From assembly GCF_003600685.1 (NCBI RefSeq), contig NZ_CP032084.1:2232001-2296000 (forward strand): a stretch of DNA of 64,000 bases, in the 5' to 3' direction. Positions 15,087 through 35,210 of the stretch are shown in pieces. This stretch comes from Achromobacter sp. B7 (GTDB lineage Bacteria; Pseudomonadota; Gammaproteobacteria; Burkholderiales; Burkholderiaceae_B). The notes under the pieces are model-generated. The model had not been told where the DNA came from, ran no database searches, and worked only from the letters and a program-made list of their open reading frames with translations. Within the stretch, counting starts at the first letter, position 1. Each line of letters starts with the position of its first letter. A program made the translations under genes and the position numbers.

Positions 15087-15100
15087 TCAGAAGCCCGATC

Positions 15101-15700: not shown

Positions 15701-15716
15701 ATCCCACATTTCCAAG

Positions 15717-15738
15717 GGCCGCCATGCGCGGCCTTTTT
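15717..15738 (+). terminator. Intrinsic terminator of the TetR gene
   Basis: Stem GGCCGC/GCGGCC, 5-base loop, then five T residues, located 16 bases after the stop. It separates tetR transcription from the downstream SDR promoter. Confidence 0.72.
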
Positions 15739-15745
15739 ACCCGAC

Positions 15746-15771
15746 ACAAATATGATGATCGTCATATTTGT
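15746..15771. promoter_or_regulatory. TetR operator O2 ahead of the dehydrogenase gene
   Basis: A 26-base palindrome, with arms matching at 12 of 13 positions, is centred between 15758 and 15759. Its core (15749-15768) matches operator O1. It lies 45 bases before the dehydrogenase start, where it could block RNA polymerase. Confidence 0.75.
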
Positions 15772-15815
15772 GCCTTCTGTCACCAGCGGTGTGCAGGCCT
15801 TATCGAGAAATCATC

Positions 15816-16520: not shown

Positions 16521-16527
16521 GGCTGTC

Positions 16528-19872: not shown

Positions 19873-19978
19873 AGGAAAGCGATGATACCGCCGAGTTCGG
19901 CGGGGACGGCGGTTTCTTGGCGACAGGTCTGGCAGGCGACCTTCGATAAAAACCTGGCCGCGATCCCTAAATTTTTGC

Positions 19979-21184
19979 GCGCACCTGCCAACCCCACCCA
20001 CCGAGCCGGCTGCGCCCACCCCGCCCAGCCGTCCGATTGCCTTTGCCGACGCCGCGCGCACCGGCAACCAGCGCGCCGTCGCCAACGCGCTGGACAGCCT
20101 GCCAGCCGGCAATGCGCTGCACGAGTACATCCTGACCTTGCCCGACGGCGCTCCGCCCGCCGCGTTCAACAGCCTGTCCGGCGAAGCGCACGCCAGCGTC
20201 GCGTCCAGCCTGATGGGTTCGGCCGGCACGACGCGCACGCTGCCGCTGTCGCACCTGCGCGCAAACCTGAACGCCGGCATGCGCCCGGGGTCTCCCACGG
20301 CGCAGGCGGGCGGCACGCTGTCCGCCTCTGCCTTGCCGTCGTCAAACGCGCAGCCCGCCTGGGCCGAGCTGGTTGGCAATTGGCAAACGCAGAACGCCAC
20401 GGACAACACGGCGCAAGTGCGTCAGCACACCGGCGGGTTGTTTGTGGGCGCCGACCATGCCGTGGGTAGCGGATGGCGGCTGGGTGCGGCCCTGGGCTAC
20501 ACGGACAGCAAGATCCGCGTCGACGACCGCGCCTCGAAGGCGGACGTGTCCGGCTACAGCGCCGCTGTCTATGGCGGCAAATCGTTTGACGCCGGCTCGG
20601 GCAAGCTGAACCTGCTGGTCGGCACGTCCTACACCTGGCACGACGTCGCCAGCGAGCGCTACGCCTCGGTAGCCGGCGCCTCGCAAAAGCTGACCGCCGA
20701 CTACGGCGCCAGCACGACGCAGCTTTTTACCGAGCTGGGCTATGCGCTGCCTTTGTCCGACCGCACCACCCTGGAACCCTTCGCGGGCGTGGCCTGGAGC
20801 GACTTGCGCAGCCGCAGCTTCAGCGAGTCGGGCGGCTCGGCGGCGCTTAGCGGCCAAAGCAGCAGCCACAAGCAGACCAGCAGCACGCTGGGCGTGCGCA
20901 CGCAAACGAACGTCTCGTTGGCGGGTGCCGAAGCGCGCTTGCAAGCCACGCTGGGCTGGCGCCATGCCTTGGGCGATGTACTGCCGCGGTCCACCATGGC
21001 GTTCGATGGCGGGCAAGCGTTCACGGTGTCGGGCGCGCCCATCGCCCGCAACGCCGCCATCGCCGAACTGGGCGGGGAAGTGGCCGTGTCGCGTAATGCG
21101 ACGCTGGGCTTGAACTACAGCGGCCAGTACGGCGGCGGCAACTGGGAACATGCAGGGTCGTTGAACGTGCGCTGGCGGTATTGA
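19979..21184 (+). pseudogene. Autotransporter C-terminal fragment (passenger lost)
   Basis: Codons from 19979 read continuously as an autotransporter linker and barrel: a Pro/Thr-rich stretch, AFADAARTGNQRAVANALDSLPAGNALHEYILTL, then AFNSLSGEAHASVASSLM and a complete roughly 270-residue beta-barrel ending in the outer-membrane signature RWRY. There is no ATG or GTG at the 5' end of this homologous stretch; the first possible start is a TTG at 20138, well inside it. Signal peptide and passenger are absent, and the boundary abuts the promoter region of a divergent gene. A decayed autotransporter left by a deletion is the best reading. Expression as a barrel-only protein cannot be excluded. Confidence 0.75.
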
Positions 21185-21277
21185 GGCGGTATTGAGCCGG
21201 GACCGAGGCGGGCTCGAGGCGGGGTCGCTCGAACCCGACCTCGGTGTTTTCCCGATAGAACAACCCATCCGGCTATT

Positions 21278-21320: not shown

Positions 21321-22118
21321 ATGGGAACCACACTGCCTCTGCCGAAGTACCACCAGATCTACCTTGTGTTGCGCGAGCAATTGCAAGAAGGTCGTTTCGA
21401 TCAGGACGGGCTGCCGGGCGAGCACGCGCTGGCGGCGCAGTTCGACGTGGCCCGCATCACCATCCGCAAGGCGATGGAGATGCTGGTGTCCGACGGGCTG
21501 GTGTCTCGCCGCCCCGGGTTGGGCACCTGGCCGTTGCGCGCGTCCCCCGCCGCGCAGGCCGTGCCCGCCGCCAATGCGTCGCAAAAGGCGCACCTGACCG
21601 GGCTGCTTGAGAACATCGTCAACATGGGCCTGCGCACCTCGGTGCAGGTGCTGGACAGCACGCTCGTGTCCGCGCCGCCAACGGTGGCCGAGTCGTTGCG
21701 CATTCCCGCGGGTGCGCCCGTTCACAAAAGCCTGCGCGTGCGCAGCACCGAGGCCGGGCCGCTGTCCCACATCACCACCTACGTGCCGCAAGCGGTGGCC
21801 GACTTCACGCGGCAAGACCTGGAACGCGAGCCCTTGCTGATGCTGCTGGAAGCGGCCGGCGTGGAATTTGGCGGCGCCACGCAGACCATCTCGGCGCGTC
21901 TGGCCGATGCGCAGGTGGCGCGCCATCTGGATGTGTCGGTGGGTTCGGCGCTGCTGGCCGTGACGCGAGTCGTGCGCGACGTGAATGATCGCCCCGTCCA
22001 GCTGTTGCAGGGCCTGTACCGGCCCGACCGATACCAATACCAATTGCAGCTGTCGCGCGTCGGCAGCATCGACGCCAAGGTCTGGGTCAGCGAAGAGCTG
22101 TCGGCCCAATTTCATTGA
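21321..22118 (+). CDS. GntR-family regulator with UTRA ligand domain
   Basis: The 265-residue protein has an N-terminal GntR winged helix (residues about 8-72: PKYHQIYLVLREQLQEGRFDQDGLPGEHALAAQFDVARITIRKAMEMLVSDGLV) and a UTRA domain (residues about 95-255) of the HutC subfamily, which usually binds a small metabolite. It is first in a long co-directional block of import and catabolic genes, 18 bases before the binding-protein gene, and most likely controls that block in response to the substrate or an intermediate. Confidence 0.9.
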   Translation: MGTTLPLPKYHQIYLVLREQLQEGRFDQDGLPGEHALAAQFDVARITIRKAMEMLVSDGLVSRRPGLGTWPLRASPAAQAVPAANASQKAHLTGLLENIVNMGLRTSVQVLDSTLVSAPPTVAESLRIPAGAPVHKSLRVRSTEAGPLSHITTYVPQAVADFTRQDLEREPLLMLLEAAGVEFGGATQTISARLADAQVARHLDVSVGSALLAVTRVVRDVNDRPVQLLQGLYRPDRYQYQLQLSRVGSIDAKVWVSEELSAQFH

Positions 22119-22136
22119 ACCCTTCGGAGATCACCC

Positions 22137-23342
22137 ATGAATTCGCGCCGCACCTTCCTCTATCGTTCCGCCGCCGCCACGGCGCTGTTGTCCGCGCCCT
22201 GGGTGGCGCGCGCGCAAGGCGCCGCGCCGGTCAAGATCGGCGTGCTGCATCCGGTGACGGGCGCCTTGGCGTATTCGGGCCAGCAATGCCGCTTGGGCGC
22301 GCTGCTGGCCATTGAAGACATCAACAAGGCCGGCGGCATCAAGTCCCTGGGTGGCGCGCCGCTGTCCGCCGTGCTGGGCGATGCGCAGTCGCGCCCCGAG
22401 GCCGGTTCCGCCGAGGTGGAAAAGATGAATGAGGCGGGCGTGTCGGCCATCGTCGGCGCGTATGCGTCCGCGATCTGCCTGGCCACCACGCAGACGGCGG
22501 CCAAGTACAACCTGCCGCATGTGGTGGACGTGGGCGTGGCGGATCAGATTGTCGAGCGCGGGCTCAAGAACACCTTCCGCTTCGGGCCGGGCTACCGGGC
22601 TTGCAGCGAGCGCGCCATTACCGACCTGGTGGCGTTGAACGAGGCGGCCGGCAAGCCGGCCAAGACGGTGATGATCGTGCACGAGGATTCGCTGTTCGGC
22701 ACCGGCACGGCGGCCCTCTTGTCCAAGTCGTTGCCGCAGCACGGCTTTGACGTGAAGGAAGTGGTCAAGCACCCGAACCCCACGCGCGACTTCAACAACA
22801 TCGTGCTGCGCATGAAGTCCGTGAATCCGGACATCGTCATCCCCGCCAATTACTACAACGAATACGCGCTGTTGCTGCGCGCCATGAAGCAGCAAAAGGT
22901 GCAGCCCAAGGCGATTTATTCGGTGCTGGGGGGCGCGGCGTCCAGCTACAAGTTCTTGAAGGAATTTCCGGATATCGCCAACGGCATCATCGACTGCAAC
23001 CACTGGTTCAATCCAAAAGACCCGCGTGTCGCGCCGTTGAAGGCGCGCGTCGAGGAAAAGGGCGCGTACTTCAGCTACGAAGTGTTCATGACCTACGTGG
23101 CGGTGCAATTGCTGGCGGATGCCATCGAACGCGCGAAGTCCGCCGACCGCGCCGCGATCATCGACGCGCTGGCCGCCAGCACCTTCCACGACAACCTGAT
23201 GCCCTACGGCCCGACCAAGTTCGTCAACGGCCAGAACACGGGCGCGCAGCCGCTGCTGACGCAGGTGATCGGCGGCGACATCAAGGTGATCATCCCGGCG
23301 GAGTATCGCCAGGCCGACGCGATTTTTCCGTTAAAGGGCTGA
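22137..23342 (+). CDS. ABC importer substrate-binding protein, Liv/urea type (Peripla_BP_6)
   Basis: The 401-residue protein begins MNSRRTFLYRSAAATALLSAPWVARAQ, a signal with a twin-arginine-like start (SRRTFL) that may be Tat or Sec. The mature part VKIGVLHPVTGALAYSGQQCRLGALLAIEDINKAGG is characteristic of branched-chain amino acid, amide or urea binding proteins. CGGAG precedes the ATG. It is the recognition component of the importer encoded by the next four genes. Its ligand should reveal the substrate of the catabolic block; it cannot be read from the sequence. Confidence 0.9.
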   Translation: MNSRRTFLYRSAAATALLSAPWVARAQGAAPVKIGVLHPVTGALAYSGQQCRLGALLAIEDINKAGGIKSLGGAPLSAVLGDAQSRPEAGSAEVEKMNEAGVSAIVGAYASAICLATTQTAAKYNLPHVVDVGVADQIVERGLKNTFRFGPGYRACSERAITDLVALNEAAGKPAKTVMIVHEDSLFGTGTAALLSKSLPQHGFDVKEVVKHPNPTRDFNNIVLRMKSVNPDIVIPANYYNEYALLLRAMKQQKVQPKAIYSVLGGAASSYKFLKEFPDIANGIIDCNHWFNPKDPRVAPLKARVEEKGAYFSYEVFMTYVAVQLLADAIERAKSADRAAIIDALAASTFHDNLMPYGPTKFVNGQNTGAQPLLTQVIGGDIKVIIPAEYRQADAIFPLKG

Positions 23343-23350
23343 GCGCAAGC

Positions 23351-24223
23351 ATGCTGGACCCGGCCATCCTTTTCTCGTCGGTGCTGAACGGCCTGACGAC
23401 CGGCGCGGTGTACGCGCTGATCGCCCTGGGGCTGACCCTGATCTACGGGGTGCTGCACATCATCAATTTCGCCCACGGCGCCGCGCTGATGGTGGCGCTG
23501 TACGCCGTCTATCTGCTGAAGGACCGGCTGGGTATCGACCCGTATGCCGCGCTGCCCCTGGTGGTGGCGGGCATGTTCGGGCTGGGCTATGCGCTACAGC
23601 GCTTCGTCATCAACCGGGCCAGCCATGGCAAGGACGAGAACATCCTGCTGGTGACGCTGGGCCTGGCCATCGTGCTTGAGAACCTGGCGCTGGTGTGGTT
23701 CAAGTCCGACACGCGCAGCATCGACACCGCCTACACCCTGTCCACGCTTGAAATCGGCCCGGCCATGATCGCGCTGCCCAAGGTCATTGCGTTCTTCGGC
23801 GCGCTGGCGGTGGCGACGGTGCTGTTCTGGATCATCCGCGGCACCGACCTGGGCCGCGCCATCCGCGCGGTGGCGCGCGAAAAGCAGGGCGCCAAGCTGA
23901 TGGGCATCGACGTGGAAAAAGTCTATGCGCTGTCGTTCGGCATCGGCATGGCCTGCCTGGGCGCGGCGGCCTGTTTCCTGCTGCCGGCCTATTACGTGAA
24001 CCCGCAGGTGGGCAGCGGCTTCGTGCTGGTGGCCTTCACGATCGTGGTGTTGGGCGGCATGGGCAGCTTCGTGGGGGCGCTGGTGGGCGGGCTATTGATC
24101 GGCGTGGTGGAATCCATCGGCGGCCTCTTCCTGGGCGATTCGTTAGGCCAGATGGGCATCTTCGCGATCTTTATCGCGGTGCTGCTGTTTCGCCCGCAGG
24201 GGCTGTTCGGGGCGAGGGGCTGA
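23351..24223 (+). CDS. livH: Liv-type ABC permease (LivH family)
   Basis: The 290-residue inner-membrane protein starts eight bases after the binding-protein stop. Its N-terminus (FSSVLNGLTTGAVYALIALGLTLIYGVLHIINFAHG) is the hallmark of LivH. About eight hydrophobic segments follow, with the permease loop DLGRAIRAVAREKQGAKLMGIDVEKVYALSFGIG near residues 170-205. It pairs with the next permease. The name reflects family, not a claim that leucine is the substrate. Confidence 0.92.
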   Translation: MLDPAILFSSVLNGLTTGAVYALIALGLTLIYGVLHIINFAHGAALMVALYAVYLLKDRLGIDPYAALPLVVAGMFGLGYALQRFVINRASHGKDENILLVTLGLAIVLENLALVWFKSDTRSIDTAYTLSTLEIGPAMIALPKVIAFFGALAVATVLFWIIRGTDLGRAIRAVAREKQGAKLMGIDVEKVYALSFGIGMACLGAAACFLLPAYYVNPQVGSGFVLVAFTIVVLGGMGSFVGALVGGLLIGVVESIGGLFLGDSLGQMGIFAIFIAVLLFRPQGLFGARG

Positions 24224-24225
24224 AC

Positions 24226-25194
24226 ATGAATAGGGATCTTTGCGCCATCGCGCTGTTCGGCCTTGCGTTGGCCGCCTTGGCAACGTTTGCGCAGTCGGGC
24301 GTGCTGCTGACGTTCGTGATGATGTCGCTGTACGCCGCGCTGCTGTCGCAGGCCTGGAACATTCTGGGCGGGTATGGCGGGCAGCTGTCGTTCGGCCATG
24401 CGCTGTTCTTCGGCGTGGGCGCTTATGCGCAAGCGCTGGGGCAATTGAACTTCGGCATCAATCCGTGGCTGGCGTTGCCGGTGGCGATTGCACTGGGTGC
24501 GCTGGTCGGCCTGGCGGTGGGCGGGCTGACGTTTCGCTACGGCCTGAAGGGGTCTTACTTTGCCCTGGTGACGCTGGCGTTTGCCGAAGTGTTTCGCATC
24601 CTGGCCTTGTCCGCGTCCTTCACGGGCGGCGGGGTGGGGCTGATGGTGCCGTTGCAAGAGGGCGCGGCAAACATGCAGTTTGCGTCGCGCCGGGGCTACA
24701 TCTATCTGCTGCTGGCGTTTGTGGTGCTGGCGTTGCTGGTGACGGCGTGGCTGCGGCACTCGCGCTTTGGCGCGTACTTGCAAGCGGTGCGCGACAACGA
24801 AGACGCCGCGCGGGCCATCGGCGTGAACCCCTTGCGGGTGAAGCTGGGCGGCATTGCACTGTCGGCGGCGTTCATGAGCGCGGCGGGCGCGTTCTATGTG
24901 CAGGTGTTCCAGTACATCGACCCGGGCATCGCCTTCGGTTCCGCCGTATCGGTGGAAGCGCTGGTGGGGGCCATCGTGGGCGGCATGGGCACGTTGTGGG
25001 GGCCGGTGCTGGGCGCCGTCGCCCTGCATGGGCTGGCCGACCTGACGCGCAATCTGTTTGGTGAATTGCCCGGCATCAGCATGGTGATCTACGGCGTGGT
25101 GCTGATTTTGATCGTGATGTTCCTGCCGCGCGGCATCAGTGGCAGCGGCCAATCGTTGGGCCGGCTGTTCGGCAAGGAGCGCGCCCGTGCCTGA
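24226..25194 (+). CDS. livM: Liv-type ABC permease (LivM family)
   Basis: The 322-residue polytopic protein begins two bases after livH. Typical LivM segments are QAWNILGGYGGQLSFGHALFFGVGAYAQA near residue 45 and FGAYLQAVRDNEDAARAIGVNPLRVKLGGIALSAAFMSAAGAFY near residue 180. With LivH it forms the channel. Its last eight bases overlap the GTG start of the ATPase gene, and the AAGGAG ribosome-binding site of that gene lies inside livM. Confidence 0.92.
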   Translation: MNRDLCAIALFGLALAALATFAQSGVLLTFVMMSLYAALLSQAWNILGGYGGQLSFGHALFFGVGAYAQALGQLNFGINPWLALPVAIALGALVGLAVGGLTFRYGLKGSYFALVTLAFAEVFRILALSASFTGGGVGLMVPLQEGAANMQFASRRGYIYLLLAFVVLALLVTAWLRHSRFGAYLQAVRDNEDAARAIGVNPLRVKLGGIALSAAFMSAAGAFYVQVFQYIDPGIAFGSAVSVEALVGAIVGGMGTLWGPVLGAVALHGLADLTRNLFGELPGISMVIYGVVLILIVMFLPRGISGSGQSLGRLFGKERARA

Positions 25195-25942
25195 CATCCT
25201 TTTGCAAGCCAGCAATCTCTCGATTTCGTTCGGCGGCCTGAAGGCCGTTCAGGACGTGAACCTGGCCGTGCCCGAGGGCTCGTTGACCGCGCTGGTCGGC
25301 CCCAACGGCGCAGGCAAGACCACGCTGTTTGCGCTGCTGTCCGGCTTTTTGAAACCGGGCGCCGGGTCGGTGCGCTTTGCCGGGCAAGACATCACCGGAC
25401 GCGCACCGCATGAATCCGCGCAGCTGGGCCTGACCCGCACTTTCCAGATCGTGCAGCCGTTCGGTGCGCAGACGGTGCGCCAGAACATTGCCGTGGGCGC
25501 GCATCTGCGCCTGCGCGATCGGCGCGCCGCCCTGGCCGCCGCCGAAGACGTGGCCGCGCGCGTGAACCTGCACAAGGTGCTGGACAAGCCCGCCGCCGAC
25601 TTGACCGTGGCCGGGCGCAAGCGGCTGGAACTGGCCCGCGCGCTGGCCACGCGCCCGCGCCTGCTGCTGCTGGACGAAGTGCTGGCCGGCCTGAATCCAA
25701 GCGAGATCGACGAGATGATTCCGGTGGTGAAAAAGCTGGTGGACGATGGCGTTACCGTCTTGATGATCGAACACGTGATGCGCGCGGTGATGAGTCTGGC
25801 CGAACACGTGTGGGTGCTGGCGCAGGGGCGTTTGATTGCGTCCGGTACGCCGGGCGAAGTCACCCGCGACCCGACGGTGGTGGAGGCCTACCTGGGGCAT
25901 GGCGCGGCCGCGCGGCTGGCCGCACAAGGGGCGCCGGCATGA
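25187..25942 (+). CDS. livG: Liv-type ABC ATPase 1 (LivG family)
   Basis: The GTG at 25187 is chosen because AAGGAG (25174-25179) sits seven bases upstream and the start overlaps the livM stop. The product is 251 residues. Walker A is GPNGAGKT; an abbreviated signature region reads LTVAGRKRLELARALATRP and Walker B LLLLDEVLAGLN. The Ser of the usual signature (LSxGxxR) is replaced by Val-Ala (TVAGRKR), as seen in some LivG-type proteins. It powers the importer with LivF. Confidence 0.9.
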   Translation: MPDILLQASNLSISFGGLKAVQDVNLAVPEGSLTALVGPNGAGKTTLFALLSGFLKPGAGSVRFAGQDITGRAPHESAQLGLTRTFQIVQPFGAQTVRQNIAVGAHLRLRDRRAALAAAEDVAARVNLHKVLDKPAADLTVAGRKRLELARALATRPRLLLLDEVLAGLNPSEIDEMIPVVKKLVDDGVTVLMIEHVMRAVMSLAEHVWVLAQGRLIASGTPGEVTRDPTVVEAYLGHGAAARLAAQGAPA

Positions 25943-26649
25943 GCGCGCTGCTTGAAGTGACCGGCTTGCGGGCGGGCTACGGGCGCATGGAAGTGCTGCG
26001 CGGCGTGGACCTGGCGGTGGGCGAAGGTGAAATCGTCGTCCTGCTGGGCAGCAACGGCGCCGGCAAATCCACGTTGAACAACACCGTCTGCGGGCTGTGC
26101 AAGCCCTGGGGCGGGTCGGTGCGTTTTGACGGTCACGACCTGACCGGCAGGCACTACCGTGACGTGGTGCGCGCCGGGCTGATCCAGGTCCCTGAAGGCC
26201 GCCGCATTTTTCCCAACCTTAGCGTGCGCGAAAACCTGGAACTGGGTTCGTTCACCCGGGCGCGCGAGCATCGCACGGCCAACCTGGACAAGGTGCTGGA
26301 TATTTTTCCGCGCCTGCGCGAACGGCTGGCGCAGCTGGCCGGCACCATGTCGGGTGGTGAGCAGCAGATGCTGGCGATCGGACGCGGGCTGATGGCCGAA
26401 CCGCGCCTGTTGATTCTGGACGAACCCTCGCTGGGCCTGTCGCCCTTGATGGTTGAAGAACTGTTCGGCCTGATCCAGCGCCTGCACACCGATGGGTTGG
26501 CAATTCTGCTGGTCGAGCAGAACGTGGGGCAATCGCTGGAAACCGGGCAGCGCGCCTATGTGATGGAAAACGGGGCGGTGCGCTATAGCGGATCGTGTGC
26601 GCAACTGATGGCCAGCGACGACGTGCGCCGGGCCTATCTGGGGATGTAG
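25939..26649 (+). CDS. livF: Liv-type ABC ATPase 2 (LivF family)
   Basis: The ATG at 25939 overlaps the livG stop (ATGA), giving 236 residues. Walker A is GSNGAGKS, followed by LIQVPEGRRIFPNLSVRENLELGSF, a LivF hallmark. Signature is MSGGEQQM and Walker B LLILDEPSLGLSP. This completes the five-component importer. It ends two bases before the aconitase-family gene, so transport and catabolism are very likely on one transcript. Confidence 0.93.
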   Translation: MSALLEVTGLRAGYGRMEVLRGVDLAVGEGEIVVLLGSNGAGKSTLNNTVCGLCKPWGGSVRFDGHDLTGRHYRDVVRAGLIQVPEGRRIFPNLSVRENLELGSFTRAREHRTANLDKVLDIFPRLRERLAQLAGTMSGGEQQMLAIGRGLMAEPRLLILDEPSLGLSPLMVEELFGLIQRLHTDGLAILLVEQNVGQSLETGQRAYVMENGAVRYSGSCAQLMASDDVRRAYLGM

Positions 26650-26651
26650 CG

Positions 26652-27962
26652 ATGCCTGTTGTTGACCAAGCCCTCCGGCCCCAGGATTCACCGCAGCGCT
26701 CACCGCAGACCCTGGCCCAGAAGTTGATCGCCGCCGCCTGCGGACGTGCCTCGGTCCAGCAGGGCGAAATCGTGACCTGCGCCGTGGACCTGGCGATGTT
26801 CCATGACTCCAGCGGGCCGCGCCGCTTGCAGCCCATGCTGCAAGAGCTGGGCGCGTCGCTGTGGGACCCGAAAAAGATCGTGCTGGTCATCGACCACTAC
26901 GTGCCCGAATCCGACGACGAATCGCGCCGCATCGTGCGCATTGCGCGCGACTGGGCGGCGGGGCAGCAACTGCCCAATGTGTATGACTCGGTTGGCATCT
27001 GCCATGTGGTCGTGCCGCAGCATGGCCACATCCGCCCCGGCATGTTCTGCGTGGGCGGGGATTCGCATTCGCCCACGGGCGGTGCGTTCGGCGCGTATAT
27101 GTTCGGCATCGGCAGCACCGAAATGCTGGGCGTGGCCGTCACCGGCAAGATCTGGGTCAAGGTGCCGCAAACGTTGATGATGCGCTGGAACGGGCGGCTG
27201 GCCGCCGGCGTGACCGCCAAGGACATGATGCTGCACATGATTGGCCGCTACGGCATGAACGGCGGGCGCTACCAAGCCGTGGAGTTCTGCGGCGAGGCCG
27301 TGCGCGCGCTGCCCATGCAGGAACGCATGACCCTGTCCAACATGAGCGCCGAACTGGGCTCGCAGGTGGGCCTGATCGCGCCGGACGAGACCACGGCCGC
27401 CTACTTGCGCAAGGCGGGGGTGACCGACAGCCTGGACCTGGCGCGCTGGCAAAGCGACGCGGACGCCGACGCTGAATGGCACGACTTTGACGCGGCCTTG
27501 CTGGCGCCGCAGGTGGCCGCGCCGCACAGCCCGGCGAACGCGCGCGACGTGGACCAGTACCGCGATGTGCCGGTGCAAGTGGCCTATATCGGCGCGTGCA
27601 CGGGCGCCAAGCTTGAGGACCTGCGCGCCGCGGCCAGCGTCTTGCGCGGTCGCCGCCTGGCGCCGGGCATGAGCCTGATGGTGGCGCCGGCCAGCCGCCT
27701 GGACCAGCAACAGGCCGAACAGGAAGGCGTGATGCAAGTGCTGCAAGACGCCGGCGCAGAGGTGCTGGCCACTTCATGCGGGGCCTGTGCGGGCTATGGC
27801 GGGTCCATTCCCGACGGGGCCAGCGTCATCTCCACCACCGCGCGCAATTTCAAGGGCCGCATGGGCTCCGAGACGGCGCGGGTTTACCTGGCGTCGCCCT
27901 ACACCGTGGCGGCCTCGGCCGTTGCCGGCCGCATTGCAGACCCGCGCGAGGTGATGGCATGA
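26652..27962 (+). CDS. Aconitase/LeuC-family hydratase, large subunit
   Basis: The ATG at 26652 gives 436 residues. Three cluster-binding cysteines, Cys316 (IGACTG), Cys376 and Cys379 (SCGACAG), have the same 60-residue and 3-residue spacing as LeuC, so a 4Fe-4S cluster is expected. Also visible are DHYVPESD and GDSHSPTGGAFG. The family adds or removes water on hydroxy-dicarboxylates (isopropylmalate, homocitrate, maleate, dimethylmalate). Neighbours are catabolic and no leuB or leuA is nearby, so leucine synthesis is unlikely. The stop overlaps the small-subunit start (ATGA). Confidence 0.85.
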   Translation: MPVVDQALRPQDSPQRSPQTLAQKLIAAACGRASVQQGEIVTCAVDLAMFHDSSGPRRLQPMLQELGASLWDPKKIVLVIDHYVPESDDESRRIVRIARDWAAGQQLPNVYDSVGICHVVVPQHGHIRPGMFCVGGDSHSPTGGAFGAYMFGIGSTEMLGVAVTGKIWVKVPQTLMMRWNGRLAAGVTAKDMMLHMIGRYGMNGGRYQAVEFCGEAVRALPMQERMTLSNMSAELGSQVGLIAPDETTAAYLRKAGVTDSLDLARWQSDADADAEWHDFDAALLAPQVAAPHSPANARDVDQYRDVPVQVAYIGACTGAKLEDLRAAASVLRGRRLAPGMSLMVAPASRLDQQQAEQEGVMQVLQDAGAEVLATSCGACAGYGGSIPDGASVISTTARNFKGRMGSETARVYLASPYTVAASAVAGRIADPREVMA

Positions 27963-28522
27963 CGGACCGCACTGCAACAACTTCCACCGCCGTCGAAGCC
28001 GGCGCGGGGCGGACCACGTCGACGCCCGCCACATCGACCCATCGCGTCTGGCGCGTGGGGGCCGATATCGACACCGACGCGCTGGCCCCGGGCGCCTACA
28101 TGAAGTTCGGCATCGACGAAATCGCGCGCCACTGCCTGCAACGCGTCCGCCCGGAATTCGCGGCGCGGGTGCAGCCGGGCGACGTGTTGGTGGCCGGGCA
28201 CAACTTCGGCATCGGCTCCTCGCGCGAGCAAGCCGCATCGGCGCTGGTGCGCCTGGGCGTGGCCGCCGTCATCGCCCCGTCTTTCAACGGCCTGTATTTT
28301 CGCAACGCCTTCAATGTCGGCCTGTTGCTGTTGACCTGCGCGCAGGCGGATGCGCTGGCCGAAGGCGAACGCATCACGTTCGACCCCATCGCCGGGCGTA
28401 TCGGCCGCGCCCAAGCCGCCGACCCCGCTGCATTGCCTTGCGAGCCCGTACCTGACTTCCTGATGGACATGGTGCGGGCCGGCGGGCTGCTGAATCTGCT
28501 GAAACAGCGCCAAACCTCCTAG
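27959..28522 (+). CDS. Aconitase/LeuD-family hydratase, small subunit
   Basis: The 187-residue protein is coupled to the large subunit by an ATGA overlap. After a low-complexity Thr/Ala-rich N-terminal stretch of about 28 residues it follows the LeuD/swivel-domain pattern: VGADIDTDALAPGAYMKF, then VAGHNFGIGSSREQAASAL, the substrate-binding GSSREQA loop. With the large subunit it should form a heterodimeric hydratase. The loop that sets specificity in this family (just after the DIDTD motif) does not by itself tell me the substrate. Confidence 0.85.
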   Translation: MTDRTATTSTAVEAGAGRTTSTPATSTHRVWRVGADIDTDALAPGAYMKFGIDEIARHCLQRVRPEFAARVQPGDVLVAGHNFGIGSSREQAASALVRLGVAAVIAPSFNGLYFRNAFNVGLLLLTCAQADALAEGERITFDPIAGRIGRAQAADPAALPCEPVPDFLMDMVRAGGLLNLLKQRQTS

Positions 28523-28532
28523 GAAGAACACG

Positions 28533-30212
28533 ATGCTAGATCCCGTCACCCTGGCGGTCCTGAAGGGCCGTCTGGAACAGATTGCCGATGAGATGGACGC
28601 GACGCTGTACCGCAGCGCGTTCAACCCCATCATTGCCGAGGCCCACGACGCCTGCCACGGCATGTACGACGCGGCCACGGGCGCCACGCTGATCCAGGGC
28701 AAGTCCGGCCTGCCGGTCTTCGTGGGCGCGATGGCGTTTGCCGTGAAGGCGGCGGCCAAGGTGGCGGCCGAACGCGGCGGCATGGTGGACGGCGACGTCT
28801 GGCTGTTCAATGACCCGTACGAAGGCGGCACGCACGCCAACGACTTCAAGCTGGTGCGTCCGGTGTTCCGCGACCAGAAGCTGTTCTGCTTTCTGGCGTC
28901 GGCCGCGCATTGGCACGACGTAGGCGGCGCGGTGCCCGGCAATTACAACCCGGCCGCCACCGAATGCTGGCAAGAGGCGGTGCAGATCCCGCCGGTGCGC
29001 ATCGTGCGCGCGGGCGTGCTGGACCTGGACGTGCTGGCCATCCTGAAGGCCAACACCCGCTTGCCGGACAGCTTGTGGGGCGACCTGAACGGGCAATTGG
29101 CCGCGTTGGAGTTGGGCGCGGGGCGTCTGGACGGGCTGCTGGACGAATATGGCGACGCCACCGTGCTGGAGTCGCTGGACACCTTGCGCCAGCGTGCGCG
29201 TCGTTTGATGCGCGACCACATCGCGCGCCTGCCCGACGGCGACTACGCGTTCGAAGACATGCTGGACAACGACGGTGTGCGCGACGTGGCGCTGCGCATC
29301 GCGCTGAAGCTGTCGATCAATGGTGACCGGCTGACGCTGGACTTCAACGGCACGTCGCCCGCCTGCGCGGGGCCCGTCAATATCTCCCGCGCCACTGCCA
29401 TCGCCGCGTGCTACGTGGCGCTGAAGCACCTGTTTCCCGACGTGCCGGCCAACGCGGGCGTGCTGGACGCGGTGGACGTGGTGTTGCCCGACGGCCTGGT
29501 CATCTCGGCCGACCGGCCGCGCCCGGTGGGCGGCTATACCGAAACCATCCTGCGCATGATCGACGTGATCTTCTGCGCGATGGCGCAAGCCGCCCCAGAG
29601 CGCGCGATGGCCCAGGCCTACGGCACGATCAATGCGCTGTCCATCGCGGGCTATCGCAGCGACGCCGCGCGCAAAGGGCAGCGCTGGGTGATGTTCAGCT
29701 TTTTCGGTGGCGGGCACGGCGGGCACGCCGATGGCGACGGGCTGAGCCACGGCAATGCGCCGATTTCCACCGCCACCATTCCACCGCTGGAGATCCTGGA
29801 AGCCGCCTATCCCGTCCGCTTCACGCAGTGGGCGCTGCGCCCGGATTCGGCGGGCGACGGCAAGCATCGCGGCGGGCTGGGCGCCATCTATGAAATCGAA
29901 TTGCTGGAAGACAGCGCCGAAGCGTTCATCTTCGGGGAACGCGGGCGCAGCGCGCCCAAGGGCATCGCGGGCGGCGGCCAGGCTGCACTGAACGTGTTCC
30001 GGTATCAGCAGGACGGGCAATGGGCATCCCCGCCGATGAGTTCGAAGATGCTGGGCATTCAGCTACAGCGCGGCGACCGCGTGCGGCTGGAAACGCCGGG
30101 CGGTGGCGGCTACGGCGATCCTGCCGGCCGCACGACGGCCGCGCGTGAACACGACCGCAAGATGGGCTATGTGGGCGATATCGCCGGCAACAAGAAGGAG
30201 CAGTTGGCATGA
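28533..30212 (+). CDS. hyuB: Hydantoinase B/oxoprolinase-family subunit
   Basis: The 559-residue protein begins LDPVTLAVLKGRLEQIADEMDATLYRSAFNPIIAEAHDACHGMYD, diagnostic of HyuB. Further motifs are LFNDPYEGGTHANDFKLVRPVF and, near the end, GGGGYGDPAGR. HyuB acts with HyuA in ATP-dependent opening of cyclic imides or lactams (hydantoins, 5-oxoproline) or in related carboxylation reactions. AGGAAGAA precedes the ATG. Here hyuB comes before hyuA, and the two genes overlap by four bases. Confidence 0.9.
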   Translation: MLDPVTLAVLKGRLEQIADEMDATLYRSAFNPIIAEAHDACHGMYDAATGATLIQGKSGLPVFVGAMAFAVKAAAKVAAERGGMVDGDVWLFNDPYEGGTHANDFKLVRPVFRDQKLFCFLASAAHWHDVGGAVPGNYNPAATECWQEAVQIPPVRIVRAGVLDLDVLAILKANTRLPDSLWGDLNGQLAALELGAGRLDGLLDEYGDATVLESLDTLRQRARRLMRDHIARLPDGDYAFEDMLDNDGVRDVALRIALKLSINGDRLTLDFNGTSPACAGPVNISRATAIAACYVALKHLFPDVPANAGVLDAVDVVLPDGLVISADRPRPVGGYTETILRMIDVIFCAMAQAAPERAMAQAYGTINALSIAGYRSDAARKGQRWVMFSFFGGGHGGHADGDGLSHGNAPISTATIPPLEILEAAYPVRFTQWALRPDSAGDGKHRGGLGAIYEIELLEDSAEAFIFGERGRSAPKGIAGGGQAALNVFRYQQDGQWASPPMSSKMLGIQLQRGDRVRLETPGGGGYGDPAGRTTAAREHDRKMGYVGDIAGNKKEQLA

Positions 30213-32290
30213 GCACGGCAGATCGGGGTTTCGTCCCAGGCAACAACGCGTCGCGGGGGCTCGTGGTGGGCGTGGACGTGGGCGGCACGTTCACGGACCT
30301 GTTCGTGCTGGACGAGGCAGGCGGCACGGCGCGCGTGGTCAAGGTACCGTCCACGCGCGGCGAAGAAGCGCGTGGCTTCATGAACGGCATTGCGCGCGTG
30401 GCCGACGGCGCGGGCGCCATCAACACCATCGTCCATGGCACCACCGTGGGCACCAACGCGCTGCTGGAGCGCAAGGTGGCGCGCACCGGCATCATCACCA
30501 CGGCGGGATTCCGCGACGTGCTGGAGATGCGCCGCCGCGACCGACCCCAGACCTGGGGCCTGCGCGGCAATTACGAACCGGTCGTCTCGCGCGACCTGCG
30601 CCTGGAAGTCAGCGAACGCGTGCTGGCCGACGGCACCGTGCATACGCCGGTGGACCTGGGCCAGGTGGAGGCCGCGGCGCGCGCGCTGCTGGAGCAGGGC
30701 TGCGAGGCCGTGTGCGTGTTCTTCGTCAACGCGTATGCGAACCCGGTGAACGAGGCGCAGGCGGTGGCGCGCGTGCGCGCGATTTGGCCCAACGCCAATG
30801 TCACGGCGGCCACCGAAGTGCTGCCCGAGATTCGCGAATTCGAACGCTGCTCGACGGCGGTGCTCAATGCCGCGTTGCAGCCGGTGGTGGGCAGTTATCT
30901 GACGCGATTGGAATCCGATTTGCGCGAGCACGGCTTTGACGGCGAGCTGCTGGTCGTGCAGAGCAATGGCGGCGTGATGTCGCGGCAGACGGCGTGCGAC
31001 GTGCCGGTGCGCACCGCGCTGTCGGGCCCGGCGGCGGGCGTGATTGCGTGCGCGGCGATTGCGCGCGCTTCCGGCTTTCCCAACGTCGTTACCGGCGACA
31101 TGGGCGGCACCTCGTTCGATGTGTCGCTGGTGGCGGGCGGCGAGGCCTCGCTGTCGGCGCAGACCGTGATCGACTTCGGCATGGTGGTGCGCGCGCCGAT
31201 GATCCAGATCGAGACCATCGGCGCGGGCGGCGGGTCGATCGCCAGCGTGGACGCGGGCGGCCTGTTGCAGGTGGGGCCGGAATCCGCGGGCAGCGTTCCG
31301 GGCCCGGCCTGCTATGGGCGCGGCAATACCCGGCCCACCGTTACCGACGCCAATGTGCTGCTGGGCCGCATCTCGGCAGAGCGGCCGTTGGGCGGCGGCC
31401 TGCTGGCCACCATGAACGTGGAGCTGGCGCGCGCGGCCATCGAAGACCATGTGGCCAAACCGCTGGGCCTGGAGGTGCACGCGGCCGCCGAGGCGATCCT
31501 GACCGTGGCCAACGCCAAGATGGCCGGCGCGATACGCGTGGTGTCCATCGAACGCGGGCACGATCCGCGCAAGTTCGCGTACATGCCTTTCGGGGGCGGG
31601 GGCGCGTTGCATGTGTGCGCCATGATGAATGAAGTGGACGCCGCGCACGGCATCGTGCCGCGCTACCCGGGCGTGACGTCCGCGCTGGGCTGCGTCATGG
31701 CCGACATGCGGCACGACGGCGTGCAGACCTTGAACACCGCGCTGGACGCGCTGGATACCGACGACCTGTTGGCGCGTATCGATGCCCTGGCCGCGGCCTG
31801 CCAGGAACGCCTGGATTCGGCGGGCGTGGCATTCGAAGGCGTGCGTGAAAGCATCGAACTGGACATGCTTTATGTGGGCCAAAGCCACACCGTCTGCGTG
31901 GAAGTCACGCGCGATGCATTGACCCGGCCAGGCATTGCAGCGGCCTTCGACCGCGCCTACCGCGCCGCATTCGGCCGCAGCTTGAGCGGCATCGCCGTGC
32001 GCATCCTGAACCTGCGCTATGCGCGGATCGGCCAGCGCCCCAAGTTCGATTTGTCGCTGCTGGCGCCCACCTGCCGCGACATGCCGGCCGCGCTGGGCAC
32101 GCAGCGCGTGTTTCACGCGGGCCAGTGGCGCGACGCCGTGCGCTATGCGCGGCTGGACCTGCCGGTAGGCGCCGAGGTGGCCGGCCCGGCGATTCTTGAA
32201 CAGCCCGACACCACCATCTGGATCGAACCGGGCTTTGCCGGCCGCGTCGACGCGTTGGGCAATTTGCTGATTACCCGGCAGGACGCCTAG
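30209..32290 (+). CDS. hyuA: Hydantoinase A-family ATP-dependent subunit
   Basis: The 693-residue protein starts within the hyuB stop (ATGA). The N-terminal phosphate-binding motif VVGVDVGGTFTDLFVLDE, TIVHGTTVGTNALLERK, and GDMGGTSFDVSLV are hallmarks of HyuA/N-methylhydantoinase A with an actin-like ATPase fold. The length is typical for a stand-alone HyuA. Together with HyuB it probably opens a cyclic imide/lactam or activates a carbonyl at the cost of ATP. Which of these it does is not visible. Confidence 0.92.
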   Translation: MSTADRGFVPGNNASRGLVVGVDVGGTFTDLFVLDEAGGTARVVKVPSTRGEEARGFMNGIARVADGAGAINTIVHGTTVGTNALLERKVARTGIITTAGFRDVLEMRRRDRPQTWGLRGNYEPVVSRDLRLEVSERVLADGTVHTPVDLGQVEAAARALLEQGCEAVCVFFVNAYANPVNEAQAVARVRAIWPNANVTAATEVLPEIREFERCSTAVLNAALQPVVGSYLTRLESDLREHGFDGELLVVQSNGGVMSRQTACDVPVRTALSGPAAGVIACAAIARASGFPNVVTGDMGGTSFDVSLVAGGEASLSAQTVIDFGMVVRAPMIQIETIGAGGGSIASVDAGGLLQVGPESAGSVPGPACYGRGNTRPTVTDANVLLGRISAERPLGGGLLATMNVELARAAIEDHVAKPLGLEVHAAAEAILTVANAKMAGAIRVVSIERGHDPRKFAYMPFGGGGALHVCAMMNEVDAAHGIVPRYPGVTSALGCVMADMRHDGVQTLNTALDALDTDDLLARIDALAAACQERLDSAGVAFEGVRESIELDMLYVGQSHTVCVEVTRDALTRPGIAAAFDRAYRAAFGRSLSGIAVRILNLRYARIGQRPKFDLSLLAPTCRDMPAALGTQRVFHAGQWRDAVRYARLDLPVGAEVAGPAILEQPDTTIWIEPGFAGRVDALGNLLITRQDA

Positions 32291-32299
32291 GAGACAAGC

Positions 32300-32908
32300 A
32301 TGCAGGTTCCGGACCCTCGTACCACCGCCTTGCTGGTGATCGATCTGCAAAACGATTTCCTGGCGCCCGGCGGCGCCTACGATCGGGGCGGCGCGGTCAG
32401 CCCACAGGCGCGGGCCTTGCCGGCCCGCGTGGCGCCCGTTGCCCGCGCGTTGAAGTTGCAAGGCGGCTTTGTGGCGGCCAGCCAGTTCACGCTGTGGCCC
32501 GACGCGCACGGCGAGCCCATGATCTCGCCGCATTTGAAGCAACTGCGTCCGTTCCTGGCCAAAGGCGATTTCGCGGCCGGCACCACGGGGCAGGCCAATG
32601 TGGCCGAGCTGGACGGGTTGGTGGACGTGGCGGTGTGGAAGGTGGCGTATTCGGCCTTCTTCAAAACGCAGCTGGATTGGGTGTTGCGCCGCGCGGGCAT
32701 CTCCAGCGTGGTGATTGCGGGCATCGTCACCAACGGCGGCGTGGCCAGCACCGCCCGCGATGCGCACATGCGCGACTATCACGTGACCGTGCTGGCCGAC
32801 GGCTGCGCCGCGCCCACGCCCGCCATGCACGATGCCGCGCTGGCGGACCTGCGCACGGTGGCGGACGTGATCACGTGCAAGGATTTCATCGGCAGGCTGG
32901 CGTCGTGA
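32300..32908 (+). CDS. Isochorismatase-fold protein lacking the catalytic cysteine
   Basis: The 202-residue protein, with AGGAGA before the ATG, has the isochorismatase-like hydrolase fold: Asp15 in LLVIDLQNDF and Lys114 in VAVWKVAYSAF fill two of the three catalytic places. At the third, the family motif TNVCVxxTARDA reads TNGGVASTARDA, so Gly147 stands where the nucleophilic Cys of amidases such as nicotinamidase or N-carbamoylsarcosine hydrolase should be. Isochorismatases proper (EntB, PhzD) also lack this Cys. A non-amidase hydrolysis, or a binding role, is therefore more likely than amide cleavage. It lies between hyuA and the flavoprotein gene in the catabolic block. Confidence 0.82.
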   Translation: MQVPDPRTTALLVIDLQNDFLAPGGAYDRGGAVSPQARALPARVAPVARALKLQGGFVAASQFTLWPDAHGEPMISPHLKQLRPFLAKGDFAAGTTGQANVAELDGLVDVAVWKVAYSAFFKTQLDWVLRRAGISSVVIAGIVTNGGVASTARDAHMRDYHVTVLADGCAAPTPAMHDAALADLRTVADVITCKDFIGRLAS

Positions 32909-34353
32909 GCGCGGCTGTCGTCAAACGCGGAAAGCCCGGCGGCCCTTCGGACGCCGAAATGATGCAGGTGCCGGTGCTGATCATCGGCGCGGGCGCTTGC
33001 GGGCTGACCGCCGCGCTGCGGCTGGCGCAGGCGGGCATTGAAACCGTGTTGATCGAACGCGACGCCGCGCCCAGTGGCTCGTCGGCGTTGTCCTCGGGGT
33101 TTATTCCGGCAGCGGGGTCGGCGGTGCAGCGCGCCGCCGGCATCGATGATGACGCGGCGCGTTTCGCCGCCGACATCCAGGCCAAGGCCCACGGCACGGC
33201 CGCGCCGCATCTGGTTGCCGCCTACACGGGCGCGGCGGCCCCGGCCATGGATATGTTGGCGCGACATGGCCTGGCGTTCGAGGTCCTGGACGGTTTCCTG
33301 TATCCGGGACACTGCGCGCGTCGCATGCATGCCTTGCCGGAACGCACGGGCGTGGCCTTGGTGACCGCGCTGGAACGCGCCGCCACGGCCGCGGGCGCGC
33401 ATCTGTTGACGCGCGCGCTGGCCCGCGACATCTGGGTGGAAGCGGGCGAGGGCGACCGTGGCGGCGTGGACGCCGGCAGCCGCATCACCGCCGTGGGCTG
33501 CGAACGGCCGGACGGGTCCGTGGACGTGATCGGCTGCCAGGTGCTGATCCTGGCCTGCAACGGATTTGGCGGCAACGCGGCCATGGTGGCCGAGCATTTG
33601 CCCGCCATGAGCCAGGCCGTCTACGGCGGCCACGTCGGCAACGACGGCAGCGCCATCGAATGGGGCAAGGCCTTGGGCGCACGCCTGGCCGACCTGGGCG
33701 CCTACCAGGGGCACGGGTCCTGGGCGACACCGCAAGGCACATTGATCTCCTGGGCCGTCATGATGGACGGCGGGGTGCAGATCAATCGCGATGGTCGGCG
33801 CTTTCATGACGAAACGCAGGGCTATTCCGAAGCCGCCGTGCATGTGTTGTCCCAGCCGGGCGGCGTGGCCTGGAACGTGTTCGACGACCGCACGCTGGCA
33901 TTGGCACGTGGCTTTCCGGATTTTGTGGCGGCCGAAGCGGGCCAAGCAGTGAAAACCTGTGCGGATCTGCCCGCCCTGGCCGCGCTGATCGGCTGCGATG
34001 CCGGCGTGTTGCAACAGACCTTGCAAGCCGTCGGCCCGGATGGGGCGGACCCCCTTGGCCGCCGCTTTGAACGCACGCTGCAAGCGCCGTACCACGCCGT
34101 CAAGGTCACGGGCGCGCTGTTTCATACGCAAGGTGGCCTGGATATCGATGCGCAATGCCGCGTGTTGACCCGCGATGGGCAGGCGCTGCCGAATTTGCTG
34201 GCTGCCGGTGGCGCCGCGCGCGGCGTGTCGGGCAACGACGTGTCGGGCTATCTGTCCGGCAACGGATTGCTCAGTGCGGTGGCGGGCGGCTATATCGCCG
34301 CCGCGACCGCCGCATCGCTGCTGGGGCACGAACTTGTACAGGAACCCTCATGA
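32905..34353 (+). CDS. FAD-dependent dehydrogenase, fumarate reductase/3-ketosteroid dehydrogenase-like
   Basis: The GTG at 32905 overlaps the upstream stop (GTGA) and gives 482 residues; an ATG at 32959 is an alternative. A dinucleotide-binding motif VLIIGAGACGLTAALRLAQAG lies near residue 20, followed by RDAAPSGSSALSSGF, and a C-terminal second FAD segment (NLLAAGGAARGVSG). This is the FAD_binding_2 arrangement of fumarate reductase flavoproteins, tricarballylate dehydrogenase and ketosteroid dehydrogenases, which introduce or reduce C=C bonds next to carbonyl or carboxyl groups. Desaturation of the pathway intermediate before hydration is the natural guess. It overlaps the next gene by four bases. 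Confidence 0.85.
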   Translation: MSAAVVKRGKPGGPSDAEMMQVPVLIIGAGACGLTAALRLAQAGIETVLIERDAAPSGSSALSSGFIPAAGSAVQRAAGIDDDAARFAADIQAKAHGTAAPHLVAAYTGAAAPAMDMLARHGLAFEVLDGFLYPGHCARRMHALPERTGVALVTALERAATAAGAHLLTRALARDIWVEAGEGDRGGVDAGSRITAVGCERPDGSVDVIGCQVLILACNGFGGNAAMVAEHLPAMSQAVYGGHVGNDGSAIEWGKALGARLADLGAYQGHGSWATPQGTLISWAVMMDGGVQINRDGRRFHDETQGYSEAAVHVLSQPGGVAWNVFDDRTLALARGFPDFVAAEAGQAVKTCADLPALAALIGCDAGVLQQTLQAVGPDGADPLGRRFERTLQAPYHAVKVTGALFHTQGGLDIDAQCRVLTRDGQALPNLLAAGGAARGVSGNDVSGYLSGNGLLSAVAGGYIAAATAASLLGHELVQEPS

Positions 34354-35210
34354 AGCAAACCCTGAAAACGCAATTGGCAGCGGGCGCCGTGCTGGCCCCC
34401 GGCATCTACGACCCCCTGTCGGCGCTGATCGCCGAGCAGGCCGGGTTTGCCGCGCTGTACCTGTCGGGCGCTTCCATCGCCTACACCCGCTTGGGCCGTT
34501 CAGACATCGGCCTGACCACGTATTCCGAGGTCGAGGACACGCTGGCTCGGATCACCGAACGCGTCGCCACGCCGGTGATCGTGGATGCCGACACGGGCTT
34601 TGGCAACGCGTTGAACACGCAGCGCACCGTGCGCGGCTTCGAACGCGCGGGCGCTGCCATGATCCAGTTGGAAGACCAGACGTTTCCCAAACGCTGCGGG
34701 CATCTGGATGGCAAGGCGGTGATACCCGCGACCGAGATGTGCGGCAAGCTGCGCGCCGCCGTGGACGCGCGGGTGTCAGCGTCCACGCTGATACTGGCGC
34801 GCACCGACGCGGTGGCGGTTGAAGGGCTGGAGGCCGCGCTGGACCGCGCCGAGCGCTATCTTGAAGCCGGCGCCGACGCGCTGTTCATTGAAGCCTTGCG
34901 CACGCCAGAACAGATGCAGGCGGCCTGCGACCGATTTGCCGGGCGCGTGCCGCTGTTGGCCAATATGGTGGAAGGCGGCAAGACGCCGGTGCAAAGCGCG
35001 GACGCGCTGACCGCCCTGGGCTTTCGCATCGTCATCTTTCCCGGCGGCACGGCGCGCGCCGTGGCGCACACGTTGCAGGCTTACTACGGCAGCCTGCGCC
35101 AGCACGGCACGACTGCGCCATGGCAGGACCGGATGCTGGATTTTGACGGCTTGAACGCGGTGATCGGTACGCCTGAACTGCTGGAGCAGGGGCGACAGTA
35201 CGAGGGCTAG
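34350..35210 (+). CDS. Isocitrate lyase/PEP mutase-family C-C lyase
   Basis: The ATG at 34350 overlaps the flavoprotein stop (ATGA), giving 286 residues. The family pattern is clear: APGIYDPLSALIAEQAGF, VDADTGFGN (metal site), QLEDQ, and FPKRCGH with Cys116 at the catalytic lyase position. That cysteine points to C-C lyases (2-methylisocitrate, 2,3-dimethylmalate type) rather than phosphonate mutases. Cleavage would give a 2-oxoacid such as pyruvate plus a carboxylate. It is the last gene of the block and the likely final step feeding central metabolism. Confidence 0.88.
   Translation: MKQTLKTQLAAGAVLAPGIYDPLSALIAEQAGFAALYLSGASIAYTRLGRSDIGLTTYSEVEDTLARITERVATPVIVDADTGFGNALNTQRTVRGFERAGAAMIQLEDQTFPKRCGHLDGKAVIPATEMCGKLRAAVDARVSASTLILARTDAVAVEGLEAALDRAERYLEAGADALFIEALRTPEQMQAACDRFAGRVPLLANMVEGGKTPVQSADALTALGFRIVIFPGGTARAVAHTLQAYYGSLRQHGTTAPWQDRMLDFDGLNAVIGTPELLEQGRQYEG

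Follow-up and report, generated by a model that had tools for sequence, protein, structure and literature searches.

A conserved Burkholderiales operon possibly serving the catabolism of cyclic imides

Introduction

Bacteria degrade cyclic imides by means of an imidase and a half-amidase, which convert the imide into a half-amide and then a dicarboxylate, and isochorismatase-fold cysteine amidases rely on an Asp-Lys-Cys triad. No paper on the imidase/half-amidase pathway was found in the literature search. Caprolactamase was shown to be ATP-dependent, according to the available part of one report (PMC6061476). The present analysis concerns a stretch of 64,000 nucleotides from the genome of Achromobacter sp. 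B7 (the window), in which 13 genes on the + strand, at 21321–35210, encode in this order a GntR regulator, the binding protein, LivH, LivM, LivG and LivF components of a Liv-type importer, the large and small subunits of a hydratase, HyuB, HyuA, an isochorismatase-fold protein, a FAD_binding_2 flavoprotein and an ICL/PEPM-family lyase. Together, these genes would probably import a small cyclic imide, open its ring, make a branched hydroxy acid and split it into central metabolites, and there is about an even chance that the operon serves the catabolism of maleimide- or succinimide-type imides.

Conservation of the gene set

A hydratase match at E ≤ 1e-60 is found in 35 of 250 genomes of the order, with at least 55% identity in 13 of them, including Achromobacter sp. 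B7; named genomes hold at least 567 relatives, the best 80 of which were used. The compared loci are labelled by L-numbers (L036 and L069 lie in one genome), and 99 of them were classed on the basis of a hydratase at least 50% identical, tblastn matches at E ≤ 1e-8 over 40% of the query and a lyase above 55% identity. HyuBA, the isochorismatase fold, the hydratase and the lyase occur together in 38 of these 99 loci, in taxa including Achromobacter, Pandoraea, Paraburkholderia and Variovorax, and for this reason the cluster is a real, conserved catabolic operon rather than a chance neighbourhood. Members of the Alcaligenaceae, Burkholderiaceae and Comamonadaceae share the set, mostly at 60–98% identity and with the gene order kept, the exceptions being L039 (different order, identity down to 47%), loci with insertions and loci without the flavoprotein. 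The Liv importer accompanies 36 of the 38 full sets, its binding protein being 68–97% identical among the HyuBA-type loci that possess one. In L043, HyuBA is present, and both the isochorismatase fold and the lyase are missing. The original prediction, made from the window alone, had placed imide or lactam ring opening ahead of a hydratase and a Cys-type lyase, a view that synteny across Burkholderiales supports. It had also proposed synteny as a check, and here the outcome is divided: the set recurs across the order and breaks up in part, the modules being separate in some Alcaligenaceae. Absences are partly technical, since some loci end at contig ends.

A second survey began from the isochorismatase-fold protein, which lacks the usual Cys and is hereafter called the Cys-less protein. 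A match at E ≤ 1e-40 occurs in 15 of 151 genomes of the family, Achromobacter sp. B7 among them; 13 loci were newly fetched, three of which repeat named-genome loci, and another is L036. The protein adjoins cluster genes in all 15 genomes, with HyuBA in 11 and without it in four (L149–L152), and the hydratase stands at the same locus in 13, the exceptions being L146 and L153.

Other genes are met around these loci. An AtuA-like gene is found in 21 of them (L092–L097, L101–L105, L110–L113, L116, L120, L121, L123, L124 and L139) and, among loci whose gene order was printed, directly precedes GntR in L095, L097, L103 and L113. The L095 contig is filed under a Singulisphaera (Planctomycetota) bin; its hydratase adjoins a Comamonadaceae one in the tree and the contig is probably mis-binned. 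A gene of the arylmalonate decarboxylase/Asp-Glu racemase superfamily (L149, 14487–15242; L150, 4486–5292) lies near the loci that combine GntR, hydratase, Cys-less protein and lyase without HyuBA.

Ring openers and amidases

The imide reading is based mainly on the fact that unrelated families of cyclic-amide-opening enzymes sit with the same hydratase and mostly with the same lyase. In Achromobacter sp. B7, the nearest curated relatives of HyuA and HyuB are the alpha and beta subunits of caprolactamase, at 518 and 279 bits, below the CapA and CapB cut-offs of 1000 each. At L114, L133 and L140, HyuBA and the Cys-less protein are replaced by an AllB/hydantoinase-type amidohydrolase of 494–498 residues, located between hydratase and flavoprotein and accompanied by an importer 71–84% identical; the lyase is present at L114 and L133, and the L140 contig ends before it. 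The L114 and L133 amidohydrolases are nearest to AllB allantoinase and to hydantoinases, below the respective cut-offs. A quick hydratase tree, which has some very long branches and was used for a few placements and family names only, groups L133 with three HyuBA-type rows (support 96) and unites L055, L090 and L100 in one branch (support 100). The latter three, together with L041 and L045–L047, make up seven loci with two PuuE-like proteins of the polysaccharide-deacetylase family and a different isochorismatase-fold amidase (families checked on L055). A single distant PuuE-like protein (30–35% identity) is found in 15 more loci, mostly Comamonadaceae metagenome bins.

The amidase of the PuuE-type loci keeps its Cys in both sequences examined (L041 and L055). 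For the L055 enzyme, the one member searched, the best solved relative is the maleamate amidase Ami of Pseudomonas putida S16 (118.7 bits), followed by N-carbamoylsarcosine amidase and then NicF (structures 4l07 and 3uao among these). Because the ring opener is swapped and this amidase is nearest to maleamate amidase, the sequence imide, half-amide, maleate-type diacid, malate-type acid and cleavage is the best reading of the operon.

The Cys-less protein has, as originally predicted, an isochorismatase fold without Cys: Gly occupies the RutB Cys position in 39 of 39 orthologue rows (Achromobacter sp. B7 being one of them), Asp and Lys are kept in all 39, and the triad of a cysteine amidase is thus incomplete. 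The amidase fold is seen in the predicted structure (predicted local distance difference test, pLDDT, 86.7), structure matches being informative on the fold only. True isochorismatases also carry a replacement of this Gly-for-Cys kind. A 2,3-disubstituted maleamate can hydrolyse with the help of its own carboxylate and, speculatively, Cys would be dispensable because this neighbouring carboxylate can assist.

Three observations concern the loci with other ring openers. An Asp/Glu/hydantoin racemase family gene adjoins the PuuE-like pair (L100, 3982–4776; L090, 3918). At L090 2818–3882, a gene that weakly matches a Rieske-type oxygenase model, and whose neighbours appear reductase- and SDR-like by reading, adjoins the PuuE-type cluster. 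At L114, about 2.1 kb without a called gene (15092–17189) separate flavoprotein and lyase.

The alternative that survives best, unlikely in our estimation, is that two independent modules are merely co-transcribed: one of importer, HyuBA and isochorismatase fold that would handle a lactam or hydantoin (mainly as a nitrogen source), and the hydratase–lyase triad, which would serve free alkylmaleates obtained elsewhere. In its favour are 20 of the 99 loci, in which hydratase and lyase occur, often with Bug-type binding proteins, and neither a ring opener nor the isochorismatase fold, the flavoprotein or a close Liv importer was detected; L146 and L153, conversely, carry the HyuBA module without hydratase. 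The 38 loci that keep both modules together speak for a single pathway, as do the replacement rather than loss of the ring opener in L114, L133, L140 and the seven PuuE-type loci, and the association of the Cys-less protein with hydratase and lyase where HyuBA is lacking (L149–L152).

Hydratase and lyase

The large subunit of the hydratase exceeds the cut-offs of PRK00402 (527 bits) and of hacA_fam (TIGR01343, 414 bits versus 386), and the small subunit that of TIGR02087, the LeuD/DmdB family (154 versus 109). The protein is named as an enzyme of leucine biosynthesis in the named rows (best 120 of 7538 proteins listed); this function (LeuCD) is rejected on account of the 251 bits reached with the leuC model, whose cut-off is 560, and of two other LeuC proteins above that cut-off elsewhere in the Achromobacter sp. 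B7 genome. The loop region of the small subunit sets the preference for isopropylmalate or homoaconitate-type substrates, according to the available part of one source (PMC7308503). In the cluster this loop reads YMKF and has, as in homoaconitase, a basic residue, the Lys corresponding in alignments to the Arg of the homoaconitase loop YLRT (2pkp); the loop of isopropylmalate isomerase is YLVY (3vba). Of 101 rows, 97 have this Lys; the remaining four are L048, L049, L052 and L050 (a gap), where the hydratase is about 40% identical. The residue hints at a carboxyethyl side chain on the substrate.

The KRCGH lyase of the original prediction is confirmed, the motif of the ICL/PEPM enzymes with a catalytic Cys being present in the cluster and in 83 of 88 rows. 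The prpB model gives 290 bits (cut-off 354); the best solved relatives are methylisocitrate lyases, 2,3-dimethylmalate lyase is another solved relative at 162 bits (3fa3), and true isocitrate lyases are far weaker. A MmgE/PrpD gene is inserted in the cluster in L039, L107, L126 and L136 (family checked for L039). Hydratase loop and PrpB-like lyase, as far as their residues and relatives tell, would both fit a methyl-branched tricarboxylate.

As to the surroundings of the lyase, a distant CaiB-type CoA-transferase (32–34% identical to the L055 one) directly follows it on the same strand in L101, L103 and L108, and the hydratase–lyase pairs of L060 and L079 lie near MFS-like (by reading) and CaiB-type genes, with no imide module.

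Flavoprotein

The flavoprotein is optional, being found in 34 of the 38 full-set loci and absent from L054, L075, L077 and L091. Its predicted structure (pLDDT 82) resembles, in fold only, urocanate and fumarate reductases and ketosteroid and cyclohexanone dehydrogenases. The stretches aligned to the catalytic Arg402 and the substrate Arg544 of fumarate reductase read VMMD and GYLSGNG, with no Arg there in the orthologue patterns; the GYLSGNG-type stretch is conserved among orthologues with small variations. The model of the tricarballylate dehydrogenase TcuA gives 101 bits, below its cut-off of 369. The original prediction had the flavoprotein desaturate the freed dicarboxylate as an obligatory step, a role that does not agree with its absence from four of 38 loci and with the lack of arginine equivalents. 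We infer that it may rather act on a carbonyl compound such as the imide than on a free C4 dicarboxylate.

Proposed pathway and substrate

From gene content, synteny, ring-opener swaps and residue patterns we infer every reaction, their order and the substrate. The Liv-type importer would take up the imide, whose ring HyuBA would open with ATP. The isochorismatase-fold protein would hydrolyse the resulting half-amide, of the maleamate type, or assist in its hydrolysis, the DmdAB-type hydratase would add water to the 2,3-substituted maleate, and the PrpB-like lyase would cleave the malate-type acid into pyruvate (or another 2-oxoacid) and a carboxylate. The flavoprotein might convert some substrates between their saturated and unsaturated states, perhaps at the stage of the imide, and GntR would control the operon.

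Hematinic acid is 3-methyl-4-(2-carboxyethyl)maleimide. With related pyrrole-derived imides, it is the tentative lead substrate, a proposal that is, with all its parts, rather improbable. The diacid would be methyl-cis-homoaconitate, hydrated to methyl-homoisocitrate and split by retro-aldol cleavage into pyruvate and glutarate, in a route equivalent to the methylcitrate cycle one carbon longer, and the Cys-less amidase would suffice with the help of the substrate carboxylate. Heme and chlorophyll breakdown products are plausible as food. Hematinic acid was found in leaves and, in earlier work, in lake sediments, as stated in the available part of one paper (PMC7318184), and its release from heme by ChuS appears as the title of a reference cited in another (PMC6018153).

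Glutarate genes are of interest in this respect, since glutaryl-CoA dehydrogenase or a glutarate CoA-transferase stands beside the cluster in about four lineages, which hints, from gene neighbourhood, at a carboxyethyl side chain. At L055, on a Burkholderia plantarii plasmid, and at L100, in Caballeronia hypogeia, the lyase is followed by a porin, ETF, glutaryl-CoA dehydrogenase and a SUGCT-type CoA-transferase; the L055 proteins reach 735 bits against 3gnc and 542 bits against succinate-glutarate CoA-transferase (cut-off 750). In L090, which belongs to the same branch, the sequence stops behind the porin, and the pair (88% and 79% identical) is adjacent on another contig of that genome. At L045–L047 the only glutaryl-CoA dehydrogenase match of the genomes (E ≤ 1e-120) is divergent from the hydratase, and at L114 the gene is upstream of GntR. 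In seven Pandoraea loci a SUGCT-type CoA-transferase faces the lyase (516–520 bits in the two tested), and in the three Pandoraea genomes searched this lyase-side gene is, to judge from its position, the top match, with the next at 41–44% identity. The probability that three lineages show glutaryl-CoA dehydrogenase here by chance is roughly 1.6e-4 if 25 lineages are assumed. Glutaryl-CoA dehydrogenase exists in 40 of 40 genomes searched, and among these it lies within the fetched flanks only at L100 and L045–L047. CoA-transferase matches at 32–36% identity (L048, L052, L060, L079, L101, L103, L108 and L130) were excluded from the count as unspecific.

A dialkylmaleimide without an acid side chain (such as methylethylmaleimide or citraconimide), passing through a 2,3-alkylated maleate in the manner of the dimethylmalate branch of anaerobic nicotinate breakdown, is quite improbable: the small subunit above the LeuD/DmdB family cut-off and the 162-bit dimethylmalate lyase relative agree with it, yet it leaves the conserved loop Lys and the glutarate genes without a role. 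Isonicotinate is converted by a bacterial route via citrazinate to cis-aconitamate; no paper on its bacterial degradation was among the matches listed. An aconitate-type pathway from such a six-ring imide (hydrolysis of cis-aconitamate, hydration, cleavage to glyoxylate and succinate) would follow identical reaction logic, would presumably suit the loop Lys and would recall the weak TcuA likeness of the flavoprotein, but it is very improbable, given that a dedicated pair would presumably be superfluous beside housekeeping aconitase and isocitrate lyase, that glutaryl-CoA dehydrogenase is left unexplained and that the lyase is PrpB-like.

Several findings weigh against the imide reading or its hematinic version. 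Concerning gene content, L088 and L091 (HyuBA type) have a MFS gene and no Liv importer, and L149–L152 combine hydratase, isochorismatase fold and lyase without HyuBA; of two genomes of their genus searched, HyuA is elsewhere in one and has no match at E ≤ 1e-150 in the other. At L146 only the regulator, importer, HyuBA and isochorismatase fold are present, the hydratase–lyase triad lying elsewhere in the genome (L159), and the L153 genome has no clade hydratase at E ≤ 1e-40, its lyase (67–68% identical) standing at a separate place (L158) with no hydratase beside it. L045–L047 lack the flavoprotein and the clade lyase, with only 38% lyase matches elsewhere in these genomes. Concerning amide hydrolysis, the cluster's isochorismatase-fold protein is, to judge from its residues, without the usual nucleophile, and no amidase gene was seen at the L133 locus, which would fit the idea of a dispensable Cys. 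Concerning glutarate, the lineage count of 25 behind the chance figure is the author's guess; for the L055 enzyme, FadE outranks glutaryl-CoA dehydrogenase in NCBIfam, and for those of L046 and L114 no glutaryl-CoA model is listed at E ≤ 1e-60, so that the naming of the latter two relies on 70–72% identity to the L055 protein. In Achromobacter sp. B7 no glutarate genes adjoin the cluster and the glutaryl-CoA dehydrogenase lies 2.4 Mb away, and SUGCT-type paralogues are numerous in some genomes (seven matches at E ≤ 1e-90 in Achromobacter sp. B7).

If the imide reading holds, an operon widespread in Burkholderiales, with a hydratase that bears the name of leucine biosynthesis, would gain a function. 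If hematinic acid were the substrate, the operon would provide a path for degrading the imides left at the end of chlorophyll and heme oxidation, and the conserved Cys-less protein would have directly testable chemistry. The yearly production and degradation of chlorophyll amount to about 10^12 kg, as given in the available part of the paper cited above (PMC7318184).

Layout of the cluster and its neighbourhood

The Achromobacter sp. B7 genome is a single contig of 6.24 Mb, and its closest named relatives belong to Achromobacter. Within the cluster (Table 1), gaps between neighbouring genes range from -8 to +18 bases. The original prediction had counted twelve co-directional genes headed by a GntR regulator, with many ATGA/GTGA overlaps; direction, first gene and overlaps (five, of 4 bases each) hold, and the count is 13. 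The families that it named were all recovered on the + strand by family searches, LivG and LivF by reading.

Table 1. Genes of the cluster, with positions in the window and supporting models
Feature	Position	Strand	Models and remarks
GntR/UTRA regulator	21321..22118	+	PF00392, PF07702 above cut-off
Periplasmic binding protein, Liv-type ABC importer	22137..23342	+	PF13458
LivH-type permease	23351..24223	+	best NCBIfam matches UrtB/LivH, below cut-offs
LivM-type permease	24226..25194	+	PF02653
LivG-type ATPase	25187..25942	+	GTG start chosen, 25139 start possible; name from reading sequence alone
LivF-type ATPase	25939..26649	+	name from reading sequence alone
Hydratase large subunit, LeuC/HacA/DmdA type	26652..27962	+	PF00330, PRK00402, hacA_fam
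Hydratase small subunit, LeuD/DmdB family, substrate loop YMKF	27959..28522	+	TIGR02087
HyuB/oxoprolinase B	28533..30212	+	PF02538
HyuA/oxoprolinase A	30209..32290	+	PF01968, PF05378, PF19278
Isochorismatase-fold protein, Cys replaced by Gly	32300..32908	+	
FAD_binding_2 flavoprotein	32905..34353	+	GTG start, ATG 32959 also possible; optional in cluster
ICL/PEPM-family lyase, PrpB-like, KRCGH	34350..35210	+	PF13714

Outside the cluster, an mscS-like gene lies at 35289, directly 3′, the segment 35289–38937 encoding a MscS-type channel and then an Asp-Al_Ex/TrkA_C exchanger. On the other side, an autotransporter beta-domain is found at 20138–21184 (+), in an open frame of 348 residues in which most of the passenger is not visible. 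Minus-strand frames at 17955–21268, suspected from their length to be a glutarate operon, were rejected: neither the family search of three of them nor the structure-sequence searches of two yielded a match, and their translations do not resemble those enzymes on inspection.

Comparison with known systems

No described pathway for this gene combination or for hematinic acid was among the matches listed, which does not establish its absence; to this extent, the original view that the pathway is not a recognised one stands. As in the 2-methylcitrate cycle (PrpD, aconitase, PrpB), a methyl-branched maleate-type acid would be hydrated and a KRCGH lyase would release pyruvate, and some clusters add MmgE/PrpD; unlike that cycle, the hydratase is a two-subunit HacA/DmdA-type enzyme, imide opening would come first and the lyase is below the PrpB cut-off. 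The pairing of a LeuD/DmdB-family hydratase with an ICL/PEPM lyase recalls the dimethylmaleate hydratase and dimethylmalate lyase of anaerobic nicotinate breakdown, from which the operon differs by HyuBA, the importer and the loop Lys, the comparison being with the dimethylmalate lyase of the Protein Data Bank (3fa3) and not with nicotinate-pathway enzymes.

With caprolactamase CapAB and hydantoinase HyuAB the cluster shares a two-subunit family, whereas its scores against CapAB (518 and 279 versus 1000) and its other downstream genes set it apart. The isochorismatase fold is common to the maleamate amidases Ami and NicF, Ami being the nearest solved relative of the L055 amidase; in contrast to them, the cluster protein carries Gly in place of the nucleophilic Cys, and RutB and biuret hydrolase are, if anything, its closer relatives. 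Finally, the proposed course from imide via half-amide to dicarboxylate is that of the imidase/half-amidase pathway, and the continuation by hydratase and lyase is what would distinguish the present operon from it.

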